A stretch of 62,319 nt of DNA, from the NCBI GenBank assembly GCA_013538855.1, contig JABXJS010000245.1:1-62319 (forward strand). Reading direction: 5' to 3'. Every line of letters starts with the position of its first letter. The stretch's first letter is position 1. The translations under genes were made by a program, and so were the position numbers. Under the pieces are notes generated by a model. The model was not told the DNA's origin. It was given only the letters and a program-made list of their open reading frames with translations, and ran no database searches. The stretch comes from Herpetosiphonaceae bacterium (GTDB lineage: Bacteria; Chloroflexota; Chloroflexia; Chloroflexales; Herpetosiphonaceae). Shown here piece by piece: positions 49,343 to 56,792 of the stretch.

Positions 49343-50530
49343 ATGCGTACATCGCGGTTTATTGGCATCGGATTCCTTGTCCTGTGCGCGCTGATTGTGC
49401 TGGCTGTGGCACAAGGCTGGCTCAGCTCAAGCGCGCCACTAGCGATTTTTCCTACCGCCGTCCCCGCTCCAACCAACACACCCAACCCAGCCGATGTGGT
49501 CACCGTCGAGCTGATCTATAGCACCGAGAAAGAGCAGTGGCTCAAGGAGGCTGTGGCCGCCTGGCAGGCAACCGGCCCCACTGTCGATGGCCGCCCAATC
49601 CAGGTGCGGCTCGTCGGCGCTGGCTCACAGGAAATTGTCGCTGGCCTCGCCGACGGCTCGCTGCGCCCAACAGCCATTAGCCCGGCTAGCTCGCTGCAGA
49701 TCCGCCAGATCAACGCTGTCACCATCGAGGGCCAGCAGAATATCGCCGCCGATGCGCAGCCGCTGGTCTACACGCCGCTGGTCGTCGTTGGCTGGAAGCC
49801 AGCTGCCGCTGCCGATCAAAGCCCCATGGGTTCGCTTGAGCAGGGGCAGGCCGCGCTCTGGCGCACCTTGCAGCAGCAGGTCGTTGCGCACGCCGCCGAT
49901 CGCACCTTTCTGTTTGGGCAAACCGCGCCCGACTCGTCCAACAGCGGCCTGGCAACGCTCGTGCTCATGGCCTACGCCTACCACAACAAAACCTCCGGCC
50001 TCACCGTCGCCGATATTCAGGACGCTGGCTTTCAGCGCTGGCTCACTGACTATGTGCGCAATGTCGAGCGCTTCGGGGAAAGCACTGGCACCTTTATGCA
50101 GGATATGATCCGCTTTGGCCCCAGCCGCTATACCGCCCTCGTCTCCTATGAGGCCACCGCGCTCGAGTACTTATCAAGTGCCAAAAATCGCTGGGGCGAG
50201 CTAGAGCTGATCTATCCGCCAGCTAACTTGTGGAGCGATCATCCGCTGGCGATCCTCAGCGCCCCATGGGTGACGCAGCAGCAGCGCGATGCCGCCCAGC
50301 AGCTCCGTGCATTCTTGCTCACAACCCCGCAGCAGCAGGCGGCGGTCACGTTTGGCTTTCGTCCCACTGATCCTAGCGTGGCGCTCGATGGCGCTGACTC
50401 GCCGTTTCAGCAGTATGCCAGCTATGGCGTCAAGCCGAGCATCAACCAGCTTGTTGAAGATCCTTCCGCCGAGGTCGTCAATGCGCTGATGGATCTATGG
50501 ATGCAGCTTAAGCCGCTTGTGCGTCAGTAG
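49343..50530 (+). CDS. Extracellular solute-binding protein (SBP_bac_11-like), membrane-anchored
   Basis: The 395-residue protein has an N-terminal signal anchor (FIGIGFLVLCALIVLAVAQG), a Pro/Thr linker and a periplasmic-binding-protein fold. Recognisable blocks are VELIYSTEKEQWLKEAVAAW near the start of the fold, AISPASSLQIRQIN, PLVYTPLVVVGWKP, ALVSYEATALEYL and LSAPWV. No lipobox cysteine is present, so it should stay anchored by the helix. ATG 49343 has GGGGAGG four bases upstream. It is first in a three-gene unit with a 40-residue lipoprotein and a coiled-coil membrane protein, with no transporter genes, so a sensing or scaffold role is as likely as import. Confidence 0.85.
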   Translation: MRTSRFIGIGFLVLCALIVLAVAQGWLSSSAPLAIFPTAVPAPTNTPNPADVVTVELIYSTEKEQWLKEAVAAWQATGPTVDGRPIQVRLVGAGSQEIVAGLADGSLRPTAISPASSLQIRQINAVTIEGQQNIAADAQPLVYTPLVVVGWKPAAAADQSPMGSLEQGQAALWRTLQQQVVAHAADRTFLFGQTAPDSSNSGLATLVLMAYAYHNKTSGLTVADIQDAGFQRWLTDYVRNVERFGESTGTFMQDMIRFGPSRYTALVSYEATALEYLSSAKNRWGELELIYPPANLWSDHPLAILSAPWVTQQQRDAAQQLRAFLLTTPQQQAAVTFGFRPTDPSVALDGADSPFQQYASYGVKPSINQLVEDPSAEVVNALMDLWMQLKPLVRQ

Positions 50531-50546
50531 CATTCGTGAGGTAGGT

Positions 50547-50669
50547 ATGTTGCTCAAAGGCCTGCTCCCGATAGCCTTGATCGTTTCTCTGCTTGCCGCG
50601 TGTGCGATGTATCAGGGCGATCCACAGACGATTCTGTCCGTGCATGCGGACATTGCAACATTTTTCTAG
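50547..50669 (+). CDS. 40-residue lipoprotein
   Basis: ATG 50547, with GAGG at 50537-50540 (six-base spacing), opens a 40-codon frame ending in TAG at 50667-50669. The peptide begins MLLKGLLPIALIVSLLAAC. This is a complete lipoprotein signal with lipobox LAAC (Cys19), so the mature peptide is only about 22 residues (CAMYQGDPQTILSVHADI and a short end). Its stop overlaps the SD of the next gene (TAGGAGG). It is encoded between a solute-binding protein and a coiled-coil membrane protein and probably belongs with them. The family is unrecognised. Confidence 0.7.
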   Translation: MLLKGLLPIALIVSLLAACAMYQGDPQTILSVHADIATFF

Positions 50670-50677
50670 GAGGGCTG

Positions 50678-51430
50678 ATGCAGCGTCGAAATCCTTTCTT
50701 GGCTGCGGCGAGTCAGCCGCTGGCGCTTGTGGTGCTGGCTGTTGCTGTCGCCATGACCATCGTTGTCCACTGGATAGCCTTGCCGCTCGGCCTAGTCGCC
50801 TATGTGGCGATGGTGTGGACAACGGCTGGCGATCCCGCTCTGCTGGCACCAAAGCCGGAGAAGCCCAAGCTGGCCAACATCACCAGCCGCACCTTTCAAT
50901 CCCAGCTCGATGCCATCGATCGCACGCGCCGCGAGATTCGCCGCGCCGCCGGTGTGACGGCCGGCCCGCTGCAGCGCCTGCTGGAGCCAATCGCCGAGCA
51001 GGCCGACGAGCTGTTTGTTCAGGCCAATGGCCTCGCCGATAAGGGCCAGATTATCGAGCAGTACTTGCAGACGACCAATCCGCAGCAGCTGCAAAACGAG
51101 ATCTACGCCCTCGATCAGCGCATCGCCGCCACCGCCGACCAGTACACGCTCGATCAGCTCCAGGAGACCCGCGCAGCCTTGATCGATCGCCAGCAGAACG
51201 GCCAGGCGCTCGGCACCTACTATGATCGCATCATGGCCCAGCTGCAAAATATCAAGGCCAACCTCGATAATGTGCTCTCCGAGACTGTGCGCCTGCGCGC
51301 CTCCGAGGCCGCCAGCGCCTCGACCACCTCAACCCAGGTCGCCGACCGCCTGCGCGATCTCAACGCCGACATGGACGCCTTTCAGCACGTGCTGGAGGGC
51401 GCGATCTCGCATAGCGCGGCGGGGCCGTAG
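50678..51430 (+). CDS. Membrane protein with cytoplasmic coiled coil, unknown
   Basis: The 250-residue protein starts with two close membrane helices (about 13-30 and 32-48: PLALVVLAVAVAMTIVV, LPLGLVAYVAMVW). About 190 residues of charged helix rich in Gln/Ala/Leu/Arg follow (for example LLEPIAEQADELFVQANGLA and LQNEIYALDQRIAATADQYT), likely a coiled coil. No enzyme motif is seen. ATG 50678 follows AGGAGG, which overlaps the stop of the 40-residue lipoprotein. It may connect the surface binding protein to a cytoplasmic partner, which is an inference from the operon. Confidence 0.8.
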   Translation: MQRRNPFLAAASQPLALVVLAVAVAMTIVVHWIALPLGLVAYVAMVWTTAGDPALLAPKPEKPKLANITSRTFQSQLDAIDRTRREIRRAAGVTAGPLQRLLEPIAEQADELFVQANGLADKGQIIEQYLQTTNPQQLQNEIYALDQRIAATADQYTLDQLQETRAALIDRQQNGQALGTYYDRIMAQLQNIKANLDNVLSETVRLRASEAASASTTSTQVADRLRDLNADMDAFQHVLEGAISHSAAGP

Positions 51431-51453
51431 CGCGAACCTCGGCATCGTCTCTG

Positions 51454-51487
51454 CAAAGCGCTCGCTCTACAACCAGCGGGCGCTTTG
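51454..51487 (+). terminator. Hairpin after the coiled-coil protein gene
   Basis: CAAAGCGC (51454-51461) and its complement (51480-51487) close a stem extended by CGCT/AGCG, with TGTGTTG after it. It lies 24 bases beyond the stop. Confidence 0.6.
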
Positions 51488-51736
51488 TGTTGCCTGTACG
51501 CGCCGAAATTGCCGCTTGCGTCTGACTGCGTGATCTCGTATGATGAGCGTGCATAGCACCACAGCGTGCGACGCTCTCTCCACGCTACGCTACCTGCGTT
51601 GGACTGCACCCACAAGCCTTGAGAAAGCTTGCGTGGGCTACACTGTTGCCTGATTTTCAAACGTCGCTGTTCATCTCGTCTGTCGGCAGATCTGACCTAA
51701 CGCTCGCTACCGCTCACTTGTGCCAATTCCCGCTGG

Positions 51737-51815
51737 ACCCCCAGCCACAGTGGGTGGGTTTGGGCCACCGCCCCAAGCCCCCGCAGGCCATCCCTGCACC
51801 CATGCTGCTGGGGGT
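51737..51815 (+). promoter_or_regulatory. Potential structured RNA leader (three-way junction)
   Basis: Four nested helices can form in 79 bases: P1 ACCCCCAGC (51737-51745) with GCTGGGGGT (51807-51815); P2 TGGGT (51751-51755) with ACCCA (51798-51802); P3 GGGTTTGGG (51756-51764) with CCCAAGCCC (51772-51780, one G-U pair); P4 GCAGG (51783-51787) with CCTGC (51793-51797). P2, P3 and P4 meet in a junction with only two unpaired bases. It lies 31 bases before the SD of the first membrane paralogue, so it could be a cis-regulatory RNA. The region is GC-rich, so chance pairing is possible. Confidence 0.4.
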
Positions 51816-51860
51816 TCAAGGCCGATTGGTAGTCATCAACGTCGCTAAGGAGATGCTGTT

Positions 51861-52490
51861 ATGGTAGATAACTCTGACACATTTTTCACCATCCTCTTTA
51901 TTTTTGCACTGCCCAGCGTTGTCGTGATGCTCGTGAGCTTTGTGCGCGGGCTGCTGCTGATCCGGCAGATTCGTGATCAGCGTAGCGGCCTTATGGCTCC
52001 AGCCTTTCGGCGGGCGCTCTGGCTGGTTGTGGCCAACCTAGTTGAGCCAGTGGTGACGACGCTTTGGATTACGCTGTTGCTGTTTAGCGCTGGAACGTTT
52101 TTGGTTTCGCTCGGTGTGGCTGTGGGCTTAGGCATGGCCACAATGCTGGGGCTGCTGCTGCTCGCGCCGCTGCTCCATGTGCTGTCGTCTACGCCGCTGG
52201 TGCGGCGGGTGGCCTGGACGCTGCTCGGCGTTGGGGTGGCCCGCATTGTGTGCACAGTGCTGATCTTCGCCTCCAGCCTGCTGAACATCTTTGGCGATGT
52301 GACGCTGTTTGTGGGCCTGTTTGTGGTGGCGCTCGGCGTGGCCGGCGCGTCGATCTGGATCAACCGGCGGCTTGTGGCCGCTGTGCTGCTTCAGGCCAGC
52401 GCCGCGCTGCCCGCTGTCACCGTCGGACGCGAGGGCGTGATGATCACCGCCGCCAACCATCAGAGCGCCAACCAGCCCAAGATCGGCTGA
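51861..52490 (+). CDS. Multi-pass membrane protein, paralogue 1 of 5 (unrecognised family)
   Basis: The 209-residue protein has about five or six membrane helices. A conserved block RRALWLVVANLVEPVVTTLW (about 50-69) and a C-terminal cytosolic or external tail with LPAVTVGREGVMITAANHQS, ending QPKIG, recur in the following genes. No enzymatic or transport signature is seen. The ATG has AAGGAGA about eight bases upstream. It is the first of five tandem relatives and may be controlled by the RNA structure at 51737-51815. It is followed 33 bases later by paralogue 2. Confidence 0.82.
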   Translation: MVDNSDTFFTILFIFALPSVVVMLVSFVRGLLLIRQIRDQRSGLMAPAFRRALWLVVANLVEPVVTTLWITLLLFSAGTFLVSLGVAVGLGMATMLGLLLLAPLLHVLSSTPLVRRVAWTLLGVGVARIVCTVLIFASSLLNIFGDVTLFVGLFVVALGVAGASIWINRRLVAAVLLQASAALPAVTVGREGVMITAANHQSANQPKIG

Positions 52491-52523
52491 TCCGGCTGGT
52501 CACTGGAGAAGTGGAGCGTGCGT

Positions 52524-53162
52524 ATGGGAGCCATCGAAGGGCTGGCTTGGGTGCTGGGCCTGAGCTATGTTTGGCTGCTGCTGGTCAACTTTTTCAGTGG
52601 CATAGCTTGGTGTGTGCGGTTGTATCGGCAGCGCTTTGTCACGTCTGCCGCCCGCCGACTGCTCTGGCTCTACAGCTGTAGCGCGGTTGAGCCAGTCGTG
52701 ACCTTGATCTGGCTTGTGCTTCAAACGCTTCTGATTAGTGTGCTATTTCGCAATACCATGCTGGATACCCTGTGGATCTGGCTGGGTATGCTGCCCCTGC
52801 CGCTGGTGGGCCTGCTCGTGGTGCTGCCGCTGCTTCAGCTGCGCACTGCCGATGCTGTCGTCCGCAGCGCTGTCTTGCCGATGCTTGAGTGGGGCATACT
52901 GCGCACTGCCAGCGTGTTTGTCATCGACATCATGGTGTATGCCGCATTTGCGGCGGATTCCCAAGTGCTGCTGTGTGGTGCGGTGCTGCTGCTGTGTGGT
53001 TGCATTGCTGTGCTGGTTCAGTCGCTGCGCTACGGCGAAGCGCATGCGCACGCGCTGCTGGCCGCGCTGGATACGTATCAGCCCGCCGTTTCTGTCGGCC
53101 CCGAGGGTGTGATGATCACCGCCCCCAACCACCAGAGCAATAATCAGCCTAAAATCCGCTGA
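52524..53162 (+). CDS. Multi-pass membrane protein, paralogue 2 of 5
   Basis: The 212-residue protein has the same plan as paralogue 1: an N-terminal helix, the block RRLLWLYSCSAVEPVVTLIW, several more helices, and the tail QPAVSVGPEGVMITAPNHQS ending QPKIR. I choose ATG 52524 (GGAG seven bases upstream); a GTG six bases earlier is only one base from that SD. It is closer to paralogue 1 in its tail than to paralogues 3 and 4. A hairpin (53196-53219) follows. Confidence 0.8.
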   Translation: MGAIEGLAWVLGLSYVWLLLVNFFSGIAWCVRLYRQRFVTSAARRLLWLYSCSAVEPVVTLIWLVLQTLLISVLFRNTMLDTLWIWLGMLPLPLVGLLVVLPLLQLRTADAVVRSAVLPMLEWGILRTASVFVIDIMVYAAFAADSQVLLCGAVLLLCGCIAVLVQSLRYGEAHAHALLAALDTYQPAVSVGPEGVMITAPNHQSNNQPKIR

Positions 53163-53195
53163 TGAGGCACACCAGAGACATCGTATAGACGCTGC

Positions 53196-53219
53196 CATGC
53201 CGCTCCTCGGTGCGGCATG
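53196..53219 (+). terminator. Hairpin after paralogue 2
   Basis: CATGCCGC (53196-53203), loop TCCTCGGT and GCGGCATG (53212-53219). A shorter version with a nearly identical loop follows paralogue 3, so the hairpin seems to have been copied with the gene. Confidence 0.6.
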
Positions 53220-53415
53220 AGTATCTCCTGTTTGCGTTCACTATCACCTCCCTGCTGCAAGGTTACACCGCATAGTTAGCCGTTAGGTGCAGGCCCGTTT
53301 TGAGGGCGCTCTGCTATGCTACCCCATACCTTACGTTGATCACACTCCTGAACATGGACTAGCCAACAATGCGCTGAGCTGCTTCCGCGAGCAGCTTTGT
53401 ACGCTATGGAGAAGT

Positions 53416-54075
53416 ATGATGAAAGCTTTCTTTTTTGTGCTGCTGTTGCTCGTCTACGGTATTCCTGTTTTGGTGTACGGCTATAAGGGCCTACGGCTGC
53501 TACAGCGGATGCGGCGTGATACACTCATGCCGCCGACTGAGCAGCGCATCGTTTGGCTGTGTGTGCTCAATGTGATGGAGCCAGCGCTGACCGCCCTATG
53601 GCTGGTAGTGGTTGGTGCAGTGCTGTATCGCACCAACCATAGTCCTTTTGCTGCGGCCCTGCTGTCGAGTTTGTTTTCCAATATGTTCATCCTGATTATC
53701 TTTCTCATTGTCTTTGTGTTTTGGCCAATACCGCTCTTGCTGCTGATTGCACCGCTGACAAAAGTGCGCGCGAGCCACCCTCAGCTCCGTGCAACTGCCC
53801 GTGTACTGCTGCGGCGCGGTGCTGGGCGCTGTGGCTTTGTGCTGGGCATCTGGGGCACTATCGCCTTTGATGTGGCGGGCGGCTGGTTCTTCGGCAGTGC
53901 ACTGTTTCTGATCGGCTATGCCTCTATGTTTGTATCGCTCAACCACAGTCTGCAAGACGCAGAGGAGTATCTGTGTGCTCCAGAGTATCTGCTGCCTGCC
54001 GTTTCTGTCGGGCCAGAGGGTGTGATGATCATCGAGCACGCATACCGTAGCAAAAATCGCCCGAAAATCGGCTGA
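53416..54075 (+). CDS. Multi-pass membrane protein, paralogue 3 of 5
   Basis: The 219-residue protein starts MMKAFFFVLLLLVYGIPVLV and carries the shared block QRIVWLCVLNVMEPALTALW. Further helices follow (LIIFLIVFVFWPIPLLLLIA), and its tail reads LPAVSVGPEGVMIIEHAYRS, ending RPKIG. The GGAGAAG before 53416/53419 makes either ATG possible. It is very similar to the broken paralogue 4, which points to a recent duplication. The 253 bases upstream (53163-53415) hold only a hairpin and no gene. Confidence 0.82.
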   Translation: MMKAFFFVLLLLVYGIPVLVYGYKGLRLLQRMRRDTLMPPTEQRIVWLCVLNVMEPALTALWLVVVGAVLYRTNHSPFAAALLSSLFSNMFILIIFLIVFVFWPIPLLLLIAPLTKVRASHPQLRATARVLLRRGAGRCGFVLGIWGTIAFDVAGGWFFGSALFLIGYASMFVSLNHSLQDAEEYLCAPEYLLPAVSVGPEGVMIIEHAYRSKNRPKIG

Positions 54076-54485
54076 TGTTCTACGCCGCAGGCCCCATAGT
54101 AAGGCTCCAGTGCCGCTCCTCGGGGCGGCATAGCTGTGTCCGCTGATTGCGCGTCTGTATGCATGCTTAACTGTGGGCTGACAGCCGATGCTGTGTCATG
54201 CTAGCGTCTTGGCGCTGGCGGCCTGGCTGCGGGGCAATCTGCGCTGGTGTGGGTGTATAATCTGGCGACCACGTAGCCGCGCTGTTAGGATGATCTAGCC
54301 CCTGCCGCGCTGCGCTCGTGGTGCTGCACCCGCCTGCGCTGGTGCCATCCCGCACGCTCATTCACCTGTCGCCTGCTGGCGCTGCCCCACAGCCCGCGTG
54401 CGATGGATGCAGCAGTGGGCTAGCTGCTCCACAGCCCAAGCAAGGGCAGTGCGCTATGGATTCTTTGCATTGAGTTTGGTGTGTG
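54076..54485. other. Intergenic region between paralogues 3 and 4
   Basis: This 410-base gap holds the copied hairpin and a TATAAT at 54256-54261 without a good -35. No gene with an SD is seen. Its end (GCGCTATGGA, near 54451) resembles the stretch just before paralogue 3 (ACGCTATGGA, 53401), which suggests upstream sequence was duplicated too. Confidence 0.5.
54111..54130 (+). terminator. Hairpin after paralogue 3
   Basis: TGCCGC (54111-54116), loop TCCTCGGG and GCGGCA (54125-54130). It matches the hairpin after paralogue 2 in stem and loop. Confidence 0.55.
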
Positions 54486-55136
54486 ATGATCATCGTTGAA
54501 ATCCTCGCTTTGGTACTGCTGCTCGTCTACGGCGTGCCTGTGTTGGTGTATGGCTATAAGGGCCTGCGGCTGTTGAAGCAGATGCGCCGTGATCCACTCA
54601 TGCCATCTGCTGTGCGGCGCATCGTCTAGCTCTGTGTTCTCAACGCGATTGAGCCAGCGCTCACGGCCCTATGGCTGGTACTCGTTGGTGCATTGATGTA
54701 CAGCGGCACCGTGATTGCCTTCGTTGACGACCTGCTGTCGCGTTTGTTGCCCACGATGTTCGTGCAGCTCGTTTTTATTTTTTGGCCGATCCCGCTCTTG
54801 CTGCTGGTCGCACCATTGACGCAGGTGCGCGCGAGCCACCCTCAGCTCCGCGCACCTGCCCGTCTGCTGCTGAAGCGCGGTGCTGCGCGCTGTAGTTTTG
54901 TGCTTGGCATCTGGGGCCTTGTGGCGCTTGATATCGAGGCCAGCTGGTGCCTCGGCAGTGCGCTGGTGCTGGTCGGCTACGCGTCTATGCTTCTATCGCT
55001 GAACCGCAGTATCAACGGCGCAGAGGAGTATGTGTATGCTTCAGAGTATCTGCTGCCTGCCGTTTCTGTTGGCCTAGAGGGTGTCATGATCATCGAGCAC
55101 GTCCACCGCAGCAAAAATCGCCCGAGAATCGGCTGA
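54486..55136 (+). pseudogene. Membrane paralogue 4 of 5, broken by an amber codon
   Basis: From ATG 54486 the frame reads MIIVEILALVLLLVYGVPVL and on to RRIV, then TAG at 54627-54629. The same frame continues to 55136 with LCVLNAIEPALTALWLVLVG, FIFWPIPLLLLVAPLTQVRA, and the tail LPAVSVGLEGVMIIEHVHRS ending RPRIG. In all other copies this position is Trp (WL), so TGG to TAG is inferred. Apart from this the copy is intact and close to paralogue 3. A product from an internal start (GTG or ATG near 54693) would lack the first helices. Confidence 0.85.
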
Positions 55137-55178
55137 GATTCCTGGGTACGGGACGTTGCTATTAATTTGGAGGCGCGT

Positions 55179-55795
55179 ATGGGGTGGCTGCTGTTGATAC
55201 CTGCACTGATCTACGCAGGCATTGCGCTCGTTGGTGTTGTCGAGGGCGTGCGCGAGTGGCGGCAGCTGCGACGTGTGCCAGCTGTGCCGGCACAGGTGCG
55301 TCGCATTGTCTGGCTGTGTATTTTCAGCACTGTTGAGCCAGCGCTGGCTCGCGCTTGGATGCTGCTGTGCACGACGCTGCTTGTCGATGCAATGTTTGGT
55401 GCGCGTAGCTTGCCTGGGGCTGGCTGAGTGACGAAGTGTTGATACTGCTGTATGGCGCGCTGTTCATTCTGCCAACGTTCCTGCTGCTGGTGCTGGCTCC
55501 TGTCCCGGTGGCTGTAGCGACTGCTCCGCAGCTGCGGTCTGTGGTGCTGTGGTTGTTTGGCTGGGGTATGCTGCGTACCTTGGGTGTTGGTGTTGTGTCT
55601 GTTTTCCTCTGGAGCGTGCTCGTCAACGTGGCGATGCTGTGTTTCGTGGTGCTGCTGGTGGTTGTTGGTGTGGTTCTGCTCCTGCTGGCGTTAGAGTTTA
55701 GCGGGGATCAGGCGTGGACGCTCCTGCAACTATCGGCAGATCGAGCGCGTGCTGCGTCTCGTTCTGCCCACGCTGCGACCAGGACCAAGCTGTAG
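55179..55795 (+). pseudogene. Membrane paralogue 5 of 5, frameshifted and divergent
   Basis: ATG 55179 (GGAGG five bases upstream) begins MGWLLLIPALIYAGIALVGV and includes the family block RRIVWLCIFSTVEPALARAW. The frame ends at TGA 55425-55427. The family-like sequence resumes in another frame (LAWGWLSDEVLILLYGALFI, to 55795). The shift lies between 55406 and 55427 and is consistent with loss of one base. The C-terminal tail ends in an Arg/Ala-rich stretch and lacks the PAVSVGPEGVMI motif, so this is the most divergent copy. If the two halves are both translated they are unlikely to be functional. Confidence 0.75.
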
Positions 55796-55964
55796 CATCA
55801 CCCTCGCCTGGAATGTGCTAGCGGCGCGTGTGTGCCGCTCCAGCTTGGGGCGCTATTTGTGGGCCTGCAAAAGTAGAACATGTGCGCGAGTTGTGCTATA
55901 GTGGCGGCGCAAAACACAGACGGGACATCCTTTAACTTAACGAGCTTTGCCGAGGAATGAATGC

Positions 55965-56792
55965 ATGGGTCCAGCCTATCGCCTGTTGGCGCTTGATCTT
56001 GATGGAACACTGATTGATCGTAGTTTACAGTTTCGCCCGGCGGTTCAGGCGGCGGTGGCGGCAGCGCAGGCGGCTGGCGTTACCGTCACGCTGGCCACCG
56101 GGCGCATGGTGCGCACAACCCGCCCGTTCGCTGACCAGCTAAACATAACGTCTCCGCTGATCTGCTACCAAGGCGCGCATGTGCAGGCACTCAGCGGCGA
56201 GGTTATCTACGATAACCCGCTCGACGGCGCGCTGGCCGCGCAGATCGTGCAGCTGGCCGCCGCGCGCGACATCTACATCCAGGCCTACATCAACGACGAG
56301 CTGTACATCGCCGCTGAGCGCCCCGAGGCCGATGAGTATCGCAGCTTCTCCACCGTGCCGCTGCCCGTCCATGCCGTCGGCGATCTGGCCGCATGGGTGC
56401 GCACGAATCCGCCAACCAAGCTGCTCTGGATCGCTGCGCCGGAGCTGCTGCTGGAAACGCTCGACCGCTGGGGTGCGCAGTTCCAGGGCCAGGCCAGCAT
56501 CTTTCGCTCGCACGATCGCTTTGGCGAGGCGGCGGCCCCCGACAGCTCGAAGGGTGTGGCGCTGGCGGTGCTGGCCGCGCAGCTCGGCATTCCGCGCGCG
56601 CAGGTCATGGCCATCGGCGACCGCCAAAACGACGCGCCCATGCTCCAGTGGGCCGGGCTGGGCCTGGCCATGGGCGATGCCGATGAGCACGCCCGCAGCG
56701 CCGCTGATGCCGTGCTGCCACCGTTTGCCGAAGATGGCGTCGCCTGGGCGATTCAGCGCTGGATTTTGGAGCAACCGCATGACAACAATTAG
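55965..56792 (+). CDS. Cof-type HAD-superfamily phosphatase
   Basis: The 275-residue protein is a HAD phosphatase of the Cof/class IIB group. Motif I is LALDLDGTLIDR (nucleophile Asp), motif II lies in VTLATGRMV, motif III Lys in SSKGVALAVLA, and motif IV is AIGDRQNDAPML. A C2 cap lies between motifs II and III. Such enzymes remove phosphate from sugars, cofactors or nucleotides; the substrate is unknown. The start is ATG 55965, after CGAGGAA; an upstream TTG is rejected. Its end overlaps the next gene by 14 bases. The 169-base upstream region has TATAGT (55897-55902) as a possible -10. Confidence 0.93.
   Translation: MGPAYRLLALDLDGTLIDRSLQFRPAVQAAVAAAQAAGVTVTLATGRMVRTTRPFADQLNITSPLICYQGAHVQALSGEVIYDNPLDGALAAQIVQLAAARDIYIQAYINDELYIAAERPEADEYRSFSTVPLPVHAVGDLAAWVRTNPPTKLLWIAAPELLLETLDRWGAQFQGQASIFRSHDRFGEAAAPDSSKGVALAVLAAQLGIPRAQVMAIGDRQNDAPMLQWAGLGLAMGDADEHARSAADAVLPPFAEDGVAWAIQRWILEQPHDNN

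Follow-up and report, generated by a model that had tools for sequence, protein, structure and literature searches.

Strings of tandem, non-identical paralogues are documented among bacterial immunity genes. Staphylococcus aureus carries rows of tandem tsaI immunity genes, and TsaI and the other tandem T7SS immunity genes of Firmicutes vary in copy number, as does the array described here (PMC9484751). The analogy is one of genome behaviour only: no sequence match links the two, they belong to different phyla, and the present array has no recognised toxin or secretion genes adjacent to it. More generally, lineage-specific tandem families under birth-and-death evolution behave in the same way: their genes duplicate in place, diverge, lose parts, become pseudogenes and differ in copy number between genera, and nothing fundamental separates our array from them. 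Homologous sequences are found among the uncharacterised membrane proteins of Herpetosiphon (H. aurantiacus DSM 785, H. giganteus DSM 589, H. geysericola and H. llansteffanensis), which share the same EP block, the invariant residues and a tail in a similar position. Herpetosiphon differs from the array in having one copy at the common site (locus A) instead of five, an extra array at tRNA-Val(CAC) (locus B), and a tail unlike PAVSVGPEGVMI.

The Herpetosiphonaceae are gliding predatory bacteria, and the DNA considered here (the window, i.e., the whole stretch of 62,319 nucleotides that was analysed) comes from a member of this family. Its five genes define a protein family apparently absent from curated databases; the family has two clear loci, a neighbour gene that is conserved across the order, and natural copy-number variants. 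The genes offer a tidy, testable case of how a small membrane protein evolves by birth and death. They also flag a conserved and seemingly unstudied envelope locus, which comprises a solute-binding lipoprotein, a VWA lipoprotein and a coiled-coil membrane protein. The importance of the family is modest for now.

Organization of the array

A first-pass annotation, made from the letters and open reading frames alone, had described five plus-strand paralogues at 51861-55795, and both the reading frames and the alignments bear this out (Table 1). All five copies carry the block that it had pointed to: when the window is translated in six frames, (R/Q)RxxWLxxxxxxEPxxT turns up exactly five times, always within the array (52008, 52653, 53542, 54615 and 55299). 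The tail PAV(S/T)VGxEGVMI occurs four times in the same translation, again only in the array (52410, 53082, 53995 and 55056); it is found in the first four copies and missing from C5, also as described. C1 and C2 are separated by 33 nt. C3 was the query for the searches and for the structure model.

Table 1. Position of the array copies and of the neighbouring features in the window
Feature	Position	Strand	Description	Evidence
Solute-binding lipoprotein, upstream	49346..50530	+	PF13531	Pfam E 4.2e-10; 52-55% identical to the Herpetosiphon gene in the same place
SBP-VWA remnant	50547..50669	+	40 aa	Signal peptide + last codons, GDPQTILSVHADIATFF
Coiled-coil protein	50678..51430	+	250 aa (249 aa in Herpetosiphon); predicted N-terminal membrane segments	67-69% identical to Herpetosiphon
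Copy C1	51861..52490	+	209 aa, intact, body + tail	ORF; homology to C3 E 2.1e-13
Copy C2	52524..53162	+	212 aa, intact, body + tail	ORF; homology to C3 E 8.8e-13
Hairpin after C2	53197..53218	+	Perfect, short, GC-rich	
Copy C3	53416..54075	+	219 aa, intact	
Hairpin after C3	54110..54131	+		Same sequence as the hairpin after C2
Copy C4	54486..55136	+	216 codons; one in-frame TAG, otherwise open through the tail	
Copy C5, 5' part	55179..55427	+	First helix + EP block; frame ends at 55427	
Copy C5, 3' part	55436..55795	+	Different frame, tailless	
Cof-type HAD-IIB hydrolase, downstream	55965..56792	+	TIGR00099	E 4.1e-46; 58-61% identical to the Herpetosiphon gene in the same place

The annotation had also called C4 and C5 broken, which holds for the sequence as assembled: codon 48 of C4 is an in-frame TAG (54627-54629) in place of the TGG of C3, and C5 is split across two frames. 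The genome is a draft of 6.34 Mb in 285 contigs, in which the TAG and the frameshift may be either genuine or assembly errors. That both breaks are errors of sequencing or assembly, and all five genes intact, is unlikely, although single-base causes suffice, C4 is open at every other codon, and the shift in C5 lies near a short G run. Against this, a single error cannot explain C5, because this copy is also tailless and its branch in the tree is very long (2.2 changes per column).

The five genes share a common ancestry and are tandem copies. Aligned in pairs, they score 8-29 SD higher than 200 composition-preserving shuffles, C5 included (z 7.9-18.6), so that their likeness is not the product of chance. 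C3 and C4, which had been regarded as nearly identical, are only 67-69% identical in protein and about 77-82% in DNA and, with a dS of 0.40, do not stem from a recent duplication. C1 and C2 are 26% identical in the body and 81% in the tail. In a midpoint-rooted tree, whose long branches leave the deeper order unsure, the window copies form one clade (support 99/100), separate from both Herpetosiphon groups; the expansion to five thus most likely took place within the lineage of the window.

Predicted protein and known families

The product is predicted to be a polytopic membrane protein of about 200 aa with five helices, the N-terminus outside and the C-terminus inside. The AlphaFold models are helical membrane bundles with a short tail (pLDDT 74 for C3 and 78 for B1, the first locus B member of H. 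giganteus), with five long helices in the better of the two, that of H. giganteus B1; for C3 the modelled tail forms a beta hairpin, for B1 it is disordered. Hydropathy gives 4-6 segments, and by the positive-inside rule most members have their N-terminus outside and their tail inside. Across the 22 aligned members (C1-C4 included) just four residues never vary: a glutamate and a proline in helix 2, a proline in helix 3 and an arginine in helix 4. All four are predicted to lie towards the cytoplasmic side, which would suggest a structural salt bridge or a small conserved site.

As the first-pass annotation had supposed, the family is an undescribed one. Searches of Pfam (19 members) and NCBIfam (22 members) gave no E below 0.0099; for the six window products searched singly against the two libraries the best E was 0.0012, with 17.9 bits vs a cut-off of 60. 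No significant match was obtained in PHROGs, PADLOC or PDB sequences, nor with Foldseek at E<=0.001 (best E 1.0 and 0.83 for the two models), and no description of the family was found in the open-access literature searched. With respect to the libraries searched, this is a new protein family of ordinary birth-and-death behaviour. The best Z values of VIA-align (8.4 and 7.9) fall within the helical-bundle background, and the GPCRs, rhodopsins and other helical bundles in the Foldseek and VIA-align rows, being at this background level, are not read as homology. An origin from a phage, a plasmid or a viral contig was also considered and found no match.

Distribution and copy number

The family is restricted to the Herpetosiphonaceae in everything searched. 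Profile searches find it in all seven near-complete genomes of this group, which represent two genera; a profile of the window copies and their first Herpetosiphon relatives recovers it in 6/6 Herpetosiphon-type genomes. Among 400 Chloroflexota genomes (224 genera) convincing matches are confined to the same seven, and the sole further match is partial, inside a 515-aa frame (E 7.8e-4). A contig scan with a single protein likewise found Herpetosiphon only (H. giganteus DSM 589, H. aurantiacus DSM 785, H. geysericola and H. llansteffanensis). In two other genera of the Herpetosiphonaceae, whose genomes are only about 75% complete, the family was not found. Other families of the order gave some matches at E 0.001-0.1; these, either short or contained in longer unrelated frames, were set aside.

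Each near-complete genome has 2 to 5 copies over two loci: five at locus A and none at locus B in the genome of the window, and one at locus A and one to three at locus B in Herpetosiphon. The variable copy number anticipated by the first-pass annotation is therefore real, but it is a feature of the Herpetosiphonaceae and not of the phylum at large. Its picture of an expanding and decaying family also agrees with these counts, with the two broken or tailless copies of the window and with a tailless 176-aa member, G6_B2, in the Herpetosiphon genome G006 (L014 2139-2669), which resembles C5. The loss of the tail in these two copies is independent.

Genomic context

The synteny at locus A, proposed earlier as a check, is common to the window and to 6/6 Herpetosiphon genomes; in each of these six a single diverged member of 206 aa separates the 249-aa gene from the HAD gene. 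Read along the locus, H. aurantiacus has a solute-binding lipoprotein, an SBP-VWA lipoprotein, the 249-aa coiled-coil membrane protein, its one family member and the Cof-type HAD. The window has the same order, with neighbours at 52-68% identity, except that five members stand in the place of one and the SBP-VWA gene is reduced to a remnant. This gene encodes 572 aa in H. aurantiacus (L091:4333-6051) and ends GDPATIRQVYHEIATFF, and comparison with it shows the 40-codon ORF of the window to be what an internal deletion has left. The SBP-VWA gene is wholly gone from H. giganteus and G006. The gene of 249 or 250 aa is a single-copy neighbour throughout the order (39/60 relatives), often adjoins SBP or VWA genes, and has no match to a curated family; it is a conserved envelope gene that lacks a name. 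A genome of one of the two other genera of the Herpetosiphonaceae (G001) has it too. The gene after it there is unrelated and, as we read its sequence, MutL-like; the HAD gene lies on a different contig.

The Herpetosiphon members at locus A are very diverged (15-16% identity). A profile built without them recovers 3/6 (E 7e-6 to 8e-7), and hhalign gives E 8.6e-13 for window-B, 1.5e-5 for B-A and 5.8e-5 for window-A. The last two matches are weak alone, and the membership of locus A leans partly on shared position.

Locus B, the second array of Herpetosiphon, holds one to three copies depending on the species and lies between tRNA-Val(CAC) and a VOC gene (L010 10140-11691; L011 8329-10716). 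Its neighbours are a VOC/glyoxalase gene, RtcB, tRNA-Val and two-component genes, and it is likely a place where genes are gained and lost. In the genome of the window, the best VOC relative (46%) is on contig C132, where profile searches find no family member.

Constraint and selection

Among the window copies the tail is under stronger constraint than the body. Between C1 and C2, pN is 0.10 in the tail vs 0.52 in the body (Fisher p 2.7e-10), and C2-C3 shows the same contrast (p 4.8e-6). Gene conversion of the tail was considered: the synonymous differences of C2-C3 are 0.32 in the tail vs 0.68 in the body (p 0.008), a hint limited to this pair. C1-C2 shows no such signal, so amino-acid constraint accounts for most of the conservation. 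B1, B2 and B3 of Herpetosiphon have tails that differ from one another, and the constant tail is thus particular to the window genome.

Wherever it can be measured, pairwise dN/dS stays below 1 (0.07-0.50 for the pairs with usable dS), a whole-gene measure that site-specific positive selection could escape. Most Herpetosiphon orthologue pairs fall between 0.07 and 0.25, one B2 pair reaches 0.43 and C3-C4 0.50; at locus A the range is 0.12-0.23 vs 0.03-0.07 for the neighbouring 249-aa gene. Evolution of the family is fast and the purifying selection on it weak, with no pointer to positive selection. The diversifying selection suggested in the first-pass annotation finds no support in these whole-gene values, and the dosage selection offered beside it is unlikely because the copies, after their divergence, are about 30% identical.

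The same values bear on the view that the window expansion is neutral decay without any selected function, most of its copies heading for loss. Two of the five copies are defective as assembled, the C3-C4 ratio of 0.50 looks relaxed, and a tailless copy exists in Herpetosiphon too; yet C1, C2 and C3 are still intact after great divergence, the tail is strongly constrained, and most Herpetosiphon orthologue pairs show the low dN/dS of purifying selection, which leaves neutral decay improbable.

Possible function

Our preferred explanation, held tentatively and at somewhat less than even probability, is that of a tandem family restricted to the Herpetosiphonaceae whose product would be an accessory subunit of the adjoining envelope system and which undergoes birth and death by unequal crossing over. 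The protein would work with the solute-binding lipoprotein, the VWA-type lipoprotein and the coiled-coil membrane protein encoded next door; its cytoplasmic tail may dock to a partner common to all the window copies, while the membrane body would drift under weaker purifying selection. Genes would be added and removed as copies cross over unequally, so that copies may be born, diverge, lose the tail and die. Several observations stand against this explanation: the second array of Herpetosiphon adjoins a VOC/glyoxalase gene and a tRNA, not envelope genes, and the tail is not conserved between B1, B2 and B3. Moreover, the SBP-VWA protein is not an obligate partner, since the family persists where this gene has been lost (H. 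giganteus and G006) or shortened to a remnant (window). A bolder version would see in these proteins a new membrane module, in which the conserved cytoplasmic tail acts as a common plug for one partner and the five-helix body is varied from one diverging paralogue to the next, copy number and body together tuning what an envelope system of predatory Chloroflexota recognises or resists; such a role is quite improbable at present.

A small transporter or a ligand-sensing membrane protein, whose copies diverge in substrate and whose invariant glutamate and arginine form part of the site, is a rather doubtful candidate. The presence of these two residues in the membrane, the helix prolines and the solute-binding lipoprotein gene adjoining the array would all suit it. 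Nonetheless, no transporter profile or fold was matched, the immediate neighbours of the array include no ATPase or other energising subunit, and the invariant residues appear near the cytoplasmic face, where a structural salt bridge explains them equally well.

Finally, it is very unlikely that the array is of the immunity type, each copy protecting the membrane against a different membrane-acting toxin from kin or from the predator itself, as might be argued by analogy from the tandem non-identical polytopic paralogues with variable copy number and a diverging body, from the documented tandem immunity paralogues (PMC9484751) and from the wolf-pack predation of Herpetosiphon (PMC6210107), because the ORF lists and the Pfam scans of selected neighbours brought up no recognisable toxin or secretion gene next to either locus, 19 members searched against Pfam at E<=0.1 matched no family of this kind, PADLOC gave no match, no dN/dS exceeds 1, and every Herpetosiphon genome keeps one member at a fixed locus of housekeeping-like character.

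Intergenic signals

No RNA families were found in 50400-56100 and no sigma-70 promoters were found; terminator-like sites number 11 vs 6.1 expected and lie mostly inside genes. The hairpin that follows C2 and C3 has only these two occurrences in the whole genome, so it is not a genome-wide repeat, and it was probably duplicated along with the genes.
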